Shown here in pieces: positions 1 through 420 of a DNA stretch of 64,000 nucleotides (positions are counted from its first letter, which is position 1; each line of letters opens with the position of its first letter). The DNA comes from an uncultured Flavobacteriaceae bacterium. GTDB lineage: Bacteria; Bacteroidota; Bacteroidia; Flavobacteriales; Flavobacteriaceae. The position numbers and the translations under genes are program-made. The notes under the pieces were generated by a model that did no database searches, was not told the DNA's origin, and worked only from the letters and a program-made list of their open reading frames with translations. The stretch is taken from assembly GCA_947502635.1 (NCBI GenBank), contig CANNAN010000001.1, positions 124,001 through 188,000 of the forward strand. Reading direction: 5' to 3'.

Positions 1-36
1 TGCCGGCCGGCAGGCAGGCAGGGAATATCAGATTTC
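1..36. repeat. GC-rich repeat plus 14-nt tRNA fragment
   Basis: Bases 1-12 form a perfect palindrome (TGCCGGCCGGCA) that runs into CAGG repeats, in sharp base contrast with the AT-rich surroundings. Bases 23-36 (GAATATCAGATTTC) are identical to bases 322-335 of the tRNA-Arg downstream, which span the 3' side of the D stem to the second anticodon base. The nuclease gene therefore lies between a tRNA fragment and a complete tRNA. The element may extend left of the window. Confidence 0.7.
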
Positions 37-46
37 ATTATATTAT

Positions 47-298
47 ATGAAAGAGTATTTTAGTTATGTTTTAAAAAGTGATAAGGACGGAAGGTTGTAC
101 AAAGGTCATACCGATGATTTAAATAAGCGTTTAATTGAACATAATAGTGGGAAAACTAAATCAACAAAAGGCTATATTCCATGGAGATTGGTATATTATG
201 AAACATTTATAACACGAGAAGAATCTATATTAAGAGAAAAATATTTTAAAACAGGAAGTGGTAGAGAATTTTTAAAAGATACATTGCAAAATAAATAA
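47..298 (+). CDS. GIY-YIG nuclease family protein (UPF0213-like)
   Basis: This 83-residue protein is a single-domain GIY-YIG endonuclease of the small UPF0213/YhbQ-like type. The first motif is YVL at residues 7-9 and the second is YKG at 18-20, where the usual form is YIG. The expected catalytic arginine is R28 in the segment LNKRLIEHN, and an acidic residue lies in the later REKYFKTGSGREF segment. The length is normal for these stand-alone domains and there is no signal peptide. The stop codon ends one base before a complete tRNA-Arg, and a tRNA fragment with a GC-rich repeat lies just upstream, so the gene may belong to a tRNA-associated mobile unit. Its substrate is unknown. The family assignment is strong; the role is inference. 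Confidence 0.88.
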   Translation: MKEYFSYVLKSDKDGRLYKGHTDDLNKRLIEHNSGKTKSTKGYIPWRLVYYETFITREESILREKYFKTGSGREFLKDTLQNK

Positions 299-299
299 T

Positions 300-373
300 G
301 GCTGCGTAGTTCAACTGGATAGAATATCAGATTTCGGCTCTGAGGGTTGGGGGTTCGAATCCCTTCGCGGTCA
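300..373 (+). tRNA. tRNA-Arg (anticodon UCG)
   Basis: A full cloverleaf can be drawn. The acceptor arm pairs 300-306 with 366-372, including two G-U wobbles. The D stem is GTTC/GAAT. The anticodon stem is TCAGA/TCTGA with loop TTTCGGC and anticodon TCG at 334-336, read as UCG for CGA-type arginine codons. The T arm carries TTCGAAT at 354-360. CCA is not encoded, since ACA follows. Both wobbles arise from the 5' acceptor strand, which reads GGCTGCG where GACCGCG would pair perfectly. A strong terminator follows at once. Confidence 0.9.
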
Positions 374-380
374 CAAATAA

Positions 381-420
381 ACAAAAGATCCAAACGTTAA
401 ACGTTTGGATCTTTTGTTTT
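381..420 (+). terminator. Intrinsic terminator after tRNA-Arg
   Basis: A perfect 17-bp stem (381-397 with 401-417) closes a 3-nt loop and is followed by T residues. It starts 8 nt after the tRNA and would end its transcript. Confidence 0.85.

Follow-up and report, generated by a model that had tools for sequence, protein, structure and literature searches.

The described systems nearest in kind to the element reported here are SegB of the T-even phages and the mobile ORFs of fungal mitochondria. SegB is a free-standing GIY-YIG homing endonuclease that adjoins tRNA genes. In phage T6, cutting and recombination give rise to tandem segB/tRNA repeats, and the 5' end of the tRNA shares microhomology with the 3' end of segB, according to the available part of the report (PMC13096335). 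The mobile ORFs form hybrid genes in the mitochondrial DNA of Glomus and Allomyces: an endonuclease element lodged in a conserved gene brings a replacement piece for that gene and leaves the displaced native piece beyond itself, and in one case (atp9) the enzyme is of the GIY-YIG type, as far as the available text describes it (PMC3630166). Our element resembles SegB in the logic of its arrays, for which the T6 case, as described in that part of the report, provides a tested parallel, and the mobile ORFs in that it, too, carries a replacement piece of its target and leaves a displaced piece behind. It differs from the former, which belongs to a phage genome and amplifies whole tRNAs, and for which the available part of the paper describes neither a hairpin nor a regenerated half gene (PMC13096335). 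It differs also from the latter, which reside in fungal mitochondria and replace the 3' ends of protein genes; the term 'palindrom' does not occur in the main text of that paper (PMC3630166). In the open-access, non-preprint literature we found no account of GIY-YIG elements that reside in bacterial tRNA genes and bear hairpins.

Two further classes of mobile DNA invite comparison. Tyrosine-integrase islands target tRNA genes and restore the tRNA by a piece carried on the element, whereas the present unit contains no integrase; its sole gene encodes an 83-residue nuclease. In REP/RAYT systems a palindrome family is likewise tied to a small DNA enzyme gene, and some relatives of our unit are flanked by inverted palindromes. 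RAYT transposases are HUH (Y1) enzymes, however, whereas the present enzyme is a GIY-YIG protein and no HUH Y1 transposase, and tRNA pieces form part of the unit. The element belongs to the GIY-YIG domain family and is neither an integrase island nor a RAYT.

The window analysed is a stretch of 64,000 nucleotides from a Flavobacteriaceae genome (G000, contig C1). Its start cuts into a larger structure, the remaining left-flank part of which sits directly upstream on the contig. The features of the locus are:

C1:123972-123998, plus strand, outside the window: exact displaced copy of tRNA positions -4 to 22, directly before the palindrome.
G000:C1:123999-124022 (2 bases before the window and window 1-22), plus strand: 24-nt palindromic (hairpin) insert of the CAGG type, splitting the displaced tRNA at 22|23.
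Window 23-36, plus strand: displaced copy of tRNA positions 23-36, an exact match ending at the second anticodon base.
Window 47-298, plus strand: GIY-YIG nuclease gene, 83 residues, single domain (PF01541), with a UPF0213/Slx1-like fold in the structure model.
Window 300-374, plus strand: complete tRNA-Arg(UCG), anticodon TCG, from the tRNA search; read as the regenerated gene.
Window 383-420, plus strand: inverted repeat and T run downstream of the tRNA, terminator-like, read directly from the sequence.

A preliminary description of the window had correctly picked out the exact 14-nt repeat at 23-36 and the GC-rich palindromic CAGG repeat before it, but had taken the left flank for a mere scrap of the anticodon arm. 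In fact the displaced flank comprises positions 1-36, the tRNA's 5' half, and bears a hairpin in the D arm, between positions 22 and 23, and no tRNA base has been lost by the insertion. Because the palindrome is seated at the junction, it is not random debris. The nuclease ORF was also rightly said to stop one base before an intact tRNA-Arg, the end of which lies at 374 rather than 373 as first given. In a comparison with the whole genome the 27-nt upstream piece gave an E value of 1.9e-6. A whole-genome DNA search with tRNA-Arg(UCG) returned only its own gene and its own 5' fragment at E 0.001; the gene at 300-374 is the only full copy in the genome found by DNA search. The intact tRNA and the upstream fragment form direct repeats, and the displaced and regenerated halves are identical at this locus, which therefore gives no sign of a foreign origin. 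That no intron is involved, as proposed earlier, agrees with our finding that no intron family reaches the Rfam gathering threshold at the locus; the tRNA is intact and the nuclease ORF stands free outside it. Lodging in the manner of a classical intron or intein is absent here, as is destruction of the only target. Folded as single-stranded DNA, the interrupted half is modestly better than shuffled versions (z -1.9 and -1.3; palindrome alone, -2.5). The gene upstream of the unit is, judging by its protein sequence, presumably yqeY.

The association with tRNA genes was examined in relatives. Named genomes were scanned with the nuclease sequences alone, and the best 80 of 243 relatives were taken, amounting to 78 loci; at least six of these records apparently also occur among related loci fetched earlier. 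A tRNA gene lies within 300 bp of the nuclease at 71 of the 78 loci, on the same strand in every case (71/71), downstream of the nuclease in 52 and upstream in 19. Among the seven others, L157 has its tRNA at a distance of 487 bp, five stop at most about 110 nt from a contig end, and the last (L187, apparently the same record as L019) contains a hairpin-interrupted tRNA copy, for which the Rfam score in L019 is 35. The layout thus recurs beside tRNA genes and is not peculiar to this site, and the idea of a nuclease-carrying unit that is tied to tRNA genes and leaves an intact tRNA is borne out. Control regions of about 3.2 kb on the same contigs contained a tRNA in 0 of 20 cases. A second sample was drawn from the match list by taking the first 20 genomes that do not belong to the window's class, one locus each: a tRNA is present in 17, always on the same strand (17/17), and the other three (L231, L237, L241) contain tRNA pieces when read by eye. 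In L231 there are two units with tRNA-Leu pieces and no complete tRNA, the last copy breaking off soon after the tRNA start. Given the E value of 1.9e-6 and the tRNA genes within 300 bp at 71/78 and 17/20 loci as against 0/20 controls, a chance origin of the association is very unlikely.

A wider set of 89 loci (L016-L044, L063-L122) was fetched regardless of surroundings from the listed matches to about E 8e-8; three matches in frames of more than 400 residues were skipped. ARAGORN placed a tRNA within 300 bp in 40 of the 89, all on the nuclease strand (40/40), one of them being a doubtful selenocysteine call (L100). Where any tRNA or tmRNA was present, the nearest one was on the nuclease strand in 45 of 45 loci. 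The remaining 49 loci have no tRNA within 300 bp, and many of them belong to a sister clade treated below. The tRNA targets comprise Arg, Leu, Pro, Met, His, Asp, Val, Ser, Asn and Cys; tmRNA may be a further target, although of the two loci concerned L037 has no tmRNA fragment and L043 has two short matches to the 3' end. A close match to the nuclease was found in 130 of the 395 genomes sampled. The hosts in our tree with a readable phylum are 70 Bacteroidota, 2 Ignavibacteriota, 1 Chlorobiota, 1 Fidelibacterota and one each of two candidate phyla. Two assemblies assigned to candidate phyla (Daviesbacteria and Shapirobacteria; L207, L217) carry the same 20-nt palindrome and nuclease at tRNA-Asn, which reflects either transfer across phyla or a binning error. 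An origin from phages or plasmids was rejected, as the matches there are weak or distant: six phage records, all below 60% identity, two weak plasmid relatives, and two matches in viral contigs at 41-42%.

We then looked for interrupted tRNA copies, defined as two tRNA pieces parted by a short insert, at those 72 of the 78 loci where a tRNA is no more than 700 bp away. There are 62 interrupted places in 42 of these loci, not independent of each other because arrays repeat them, and 30 loci have no such pair. The junction is 22|23 in 40 places (28 loci) and 32|33 in 8 places (7 loci); the others are scattered and include 57|58 in the T arm. The earlier suggestion that the anticodon region is targeted must be revised: the commonest junction is in the D arm, and the 22|23 junction of our unit rules out the anticodon as its target. 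The end at position 36 is the truncation end of the displaced copy, which varies among loci. In a related set the junction is indeed 32|33, next to the anticodon loop. Like homing elements in general, these units occupy a defined site in a conserved gene, with 22|23 and 32|33 as the recurrent positions and clades specific to particular targets.

The flanking pieces are adjacent in the tRNA in 55 of the 62 places, and nothing has therefore been lost there. The inserts are mostly palindromes: for 52 of 62 the stem score reaches or exceeds the pooled 95th percentile of shuffled inserts. One exact 20-nt palindrome constitutes the insert in 25 places; 46 of the 78 loci contain it somewhere, and none of the 20 controls does. 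Reading by eye revealed hairpins that replace an arm, for example that of the anticodon in Arg(UCU) or the T arm in Pro, where the palindromes have other sequences, as well as several hairpins within one displaced copy (L074, L065, L081). In the window's own genome there are four CAGG palindromes, allowing one mismatch at most, and one other palindrome pattern occurs in 10 exact copies. Two of the four CAGG sites (L046, C1:325633, and L048, C4:298395) have no nuclease or tRNA nearby.

Displaced and regenerated halves differ in 18 of 75 loci of the 5' type. Acceptor-stem pairing in these 18 is better for the regenerated half in nine and equal in nine, in a comparison biased by the choice of the 3' strand that best fits the regenerated half; L021 (same record as L182), outside the 18, shows the opposite direction. 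The differences would fit decay of the displaced copy, subject to this bias and to L021, and do not demonstrate that the regenerated half is of foreign origin.

Comparison of occupied and empty sites within the genus revealed a presence/absence polymorphism. In all 12 genomes searched, tRNA-Arg(UCG) lies 39-1074 bp past the matched yqeY end; the site is empty in 10 and occupied in 2. The window's genome has one unit, and the other occupied genome (G010) has three with a period of 310 bp, each consisting of tRNA 1-22, palindrome, tRNA 23-38 and nuclease. The nucleases of the two genomes are 70% identical. Positions 1-36 of the restored tRNA equal those of 8 of the 10 empty sites. A second element of the same kind is present in the window's genome at tRNA-Leu(CAA) (L004, C9:145535-145785), and its counterparts occur in several congeneric species (L029, L031, L032, L033, L035, L041, L074).

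The repeated rounds of insertion that had been suspected are visible in relatives as tandem arrays. Two or more nuclease stretches lie on one strand in 37 of 164 loci, at least three of which (L190, L198, L208) include broken frames. One array is in G379, a one-contig genome, where five 450-bp units stand behind tRNA-Leu(CAG). Neighbouring units are identical in 442-444 of 450 positions (98-99%), the palindrome is at the border of T stem and T loop, and a hairpin-bearing half without nuclease stands in front. Tandem units of a half-tRNA and a hairpin, about 78-120 bp long and lacking the nuclease, are found beside an intact tRNA in L157, L083 and L042.

The nuclease matches PF01541 with 47.3 bits (cut-off 22.6, E 2.5e-12), and no NCBIfam model matched the 83-residue protein. 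The SegB nuclease is larger. In an alignment of 53 rows, from which L181 and L210 were excluded because of stop codons and other rows by choice, Y18, G20, R28, H32 and E64 are invariant and Y7 is nearly so; the catalytic positions of the GIY-YIG family comprise tyrosines, an arginine and a glutamate, and we take the latter two to be Arg28 and Glu64 here. The structure model has a pLDDT of 95.6. Foldseek ranks 1-8 are UPF0213 and Slx1 proteins, of which only rank 1 has an E value below 0.001. The nearest solved structure is 1zg2, a UPF0213 protein (E 7.4e-5; sequence match, E 2e-7). Slx1 chains follow with TM scores of about 0.7 by query length, and the UvrC N-domain and I-TevI ranked lower. 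The nearest solved folds are thus those of UPF0213 and of Slx1, which according to structure entry titles works with Slx4 on branched DNA. We know of no tested function of UPF0213 proteins, and neither family is, to our knowledge, a mobile element. The median dN/dS over 76 pairs is 0.138, which indicates purifying selection in the family and therefore an enzyme that was kept working.

A tree of 159 rows and 75 columns was computed with quick support values only, leaving out six duplicate loci as well as rows that contained stops or short domains. On this tree the target type changes 16 times, compared with at least 37 times in 100 label shuffles, and orientation 15 times compared with at least 26. 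As far as can be read from their sequences, nuclease lineages keep to one target type.

The nuclease stop is separated from the first tRNA base by a median of 1 nt over 54 loci (range -51 to 88). This spacing, together with the strand rule, suggests that the nuclease is translated from the transcript of the tRNA itself. A promoter test points weakly in the same direction: the motif TAnnTTTG is present upstream of 17 of 54 displaced copies and 6 of 54 intact tRNAs at the same loci, of 13 of 33 tRNAs at 3'-type loci, and in 16 of 400 random stretches; it was found at 0 of the 10 empty sites of the genus.

A clade of 32 tree rows is almost devoid of a tRNA link (one, at 481 bp). We examined 46 loci without a near tRNA, mostly from this clade, for flanking inverted repeats: 22 score above all 200 controls and 24 do not exceed the control maximum, while 9 of 40 tRNA-type loci are above all 200 controls. 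Some genes of the sister clade are flanked on both sides by inverted palindrome copies such as TCATTCCTGC..GCAGGAATC; loci of this kind are L005 (own genome, C20:45777-46624), L075, L089, L092, L098, L103, L108, L114 and L121. L005 comprises three tandem units, with the nuclease shortened in two. Another small clade consists of L023, L026, L028 and L034, with L036 similar and outside the tree. In L026, L028, L034 and L036 the nuclease is located at GGAGF|IGS, the nucleotide-binding motif of sugar-epimerase-like genes, an identity that we assume from the reading frame and general knowledge of the motif. These four loci have a displaced gene start upstream, a second start behind the nuclease, and inverted ends of the ACC-GTGAAAT type; L023, labelled with the protein-gene group on the tree although its target gene is unassigned, has the inverted ends only. 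In view of the second gene starts, target regeneration may extend beyond tRNA genes.

Taking these observations together, we infer homing: the unit is probably one copy of a homing-like mobile element of about 0.3 kb that resides in tRNA genes and restores the gene it targets. The small nuclease would cut its own type of tRNA gene at a boundary of loop and stem, here 22|23, and the break would be repaired by copying from a unit-bearing chromosome. The unit would start with the palindrome at the cut point and end with a tRNA copy running from the 5' flank to position 22. This piece would join the host's remaining 3' part to give a complete tRNA, while the old 5' half of the host would stay upstream as a pseudogene. 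The palindrome would guard the displaced copy against recutting. As the restored tRNA is again a target, it could be cut anew, and repair from the sister chromatid would add units and let arrays grow. Lying inside the transcription unit of the tRNA, the nuclease gene could not easily be silenced by the host. The chief objection to this model is that the nuclease should also cut the intact tRNA of its own host, since positions 1-36 are those of most empty sites in the genus (8/10); a regulated or structure-dependent activity of the nuclease must be assumed.

A broader form of this reading is tentative, and in full we think it somewhat more likely wrong than right. It regards the units as autonomous elements of about 0.3 kb made up of a structure-specific GIY-YIG nuclease and its cognate palindrome, acting on hairpin arms. 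The enzyme would cut tRNA arms as natural hairpins, place the palindrome there and, by carrying the missing part of the gene, allow the host to survive. Lone palindromes and half-tRNAs without nuclease would be non-autonomous offspring, and the sister clade would spread dispersed palindromes of Bacteroidota.

An alternative, which we consider unlikely, is that the palindrome itself is mobile. A structure-specific nuclease of the Slx1 kind would cut hairpins, palindromes would enter or replace the hairpin arms of tRNAs in a REP/RAYT-like manner, and the tRNA duplication would be a by-product of repair. The fold, nearest to UPF0213 and Slx1, agrees with such an enzyme. The exact 20-nt palindrome is found at D-, anticodon- and T-arm positions (e.g. 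L160, L197, L207, L217), in tRNAs for Arg and Asn, and in Bacteroidota and two candidate phyla. The displaced copies with several hairpins, the two of four own-genome CAGG palindromes that stand alone, and the inverted repeats above the control maximum at 22 of 46 loci without a tRNA and at 9 of 40 tRNA-type loci are also in keeping with it. However, 24 of the 46 do not exceed that maximum, CAGG palindromes are few in the own genome (four sites), and the palindrome sequence varies between nuclease groups. In the tRNA units that we read, moreover, it is the displaced side that carries the palindrome, a position that speaks for selection around a single cut point and against free insertion.

It is improbable that the unit is an RNA-controlled toxin or regulator, in which the displaced half and the hairpin would be transcribed into an RNA able to bind or control the nuclease, much as in type III toxin-antitoxin systems. 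The strand shared with the tRNA at 71/71 loci and the repeated half-tRNA units without nuclease beside some tRNAs (L157, L083, L042) would suit this proposal, but the fold is that of a DNA nuclease, and in 3'-type units (19/71) those hairpin pieces we read are found downstream of the nuclease. That a tRNA gene next to an unrelated small gene merely underwent tandem duplication and later decay is scarcely credible: the direct repeats and the more decayed look of differing displaced halves (in a biased comparison) speak for this explanation, yet it leaves unexplained the 71/78 and 17/20 loci in unrelated genera with different tRNAs, the palindrome between adjacent tRNA bases (55/62) and the target-specific nuclease clades, and chance or simple duplication is ruled out by these loci, the 62 interrupted places and the 0/20 controls.

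If the homing-like reading with a regenerated target is correct, many single-domain GIY-YIG genes of Bacteroidota would be selfish elements in tRNA genes and would count among the smallest mobile elements that are autonomous. Their presence would account for the pseudo-tRNA pieces, the tandem arrays and the palindromes in the neighbourhood of tRNA genes. Such elements would furthermore represent a natural, very small homing system that restores its target and the specificity of which (which tRNA, which loop) could be read from genomes.

Elsewhere in the window, an Rfam DUF805 RNA (RF03081, 61.6 bits) is located at 1637-1705 on the minus strand, just upstream of a 188-residue ORF at 1058-1624.
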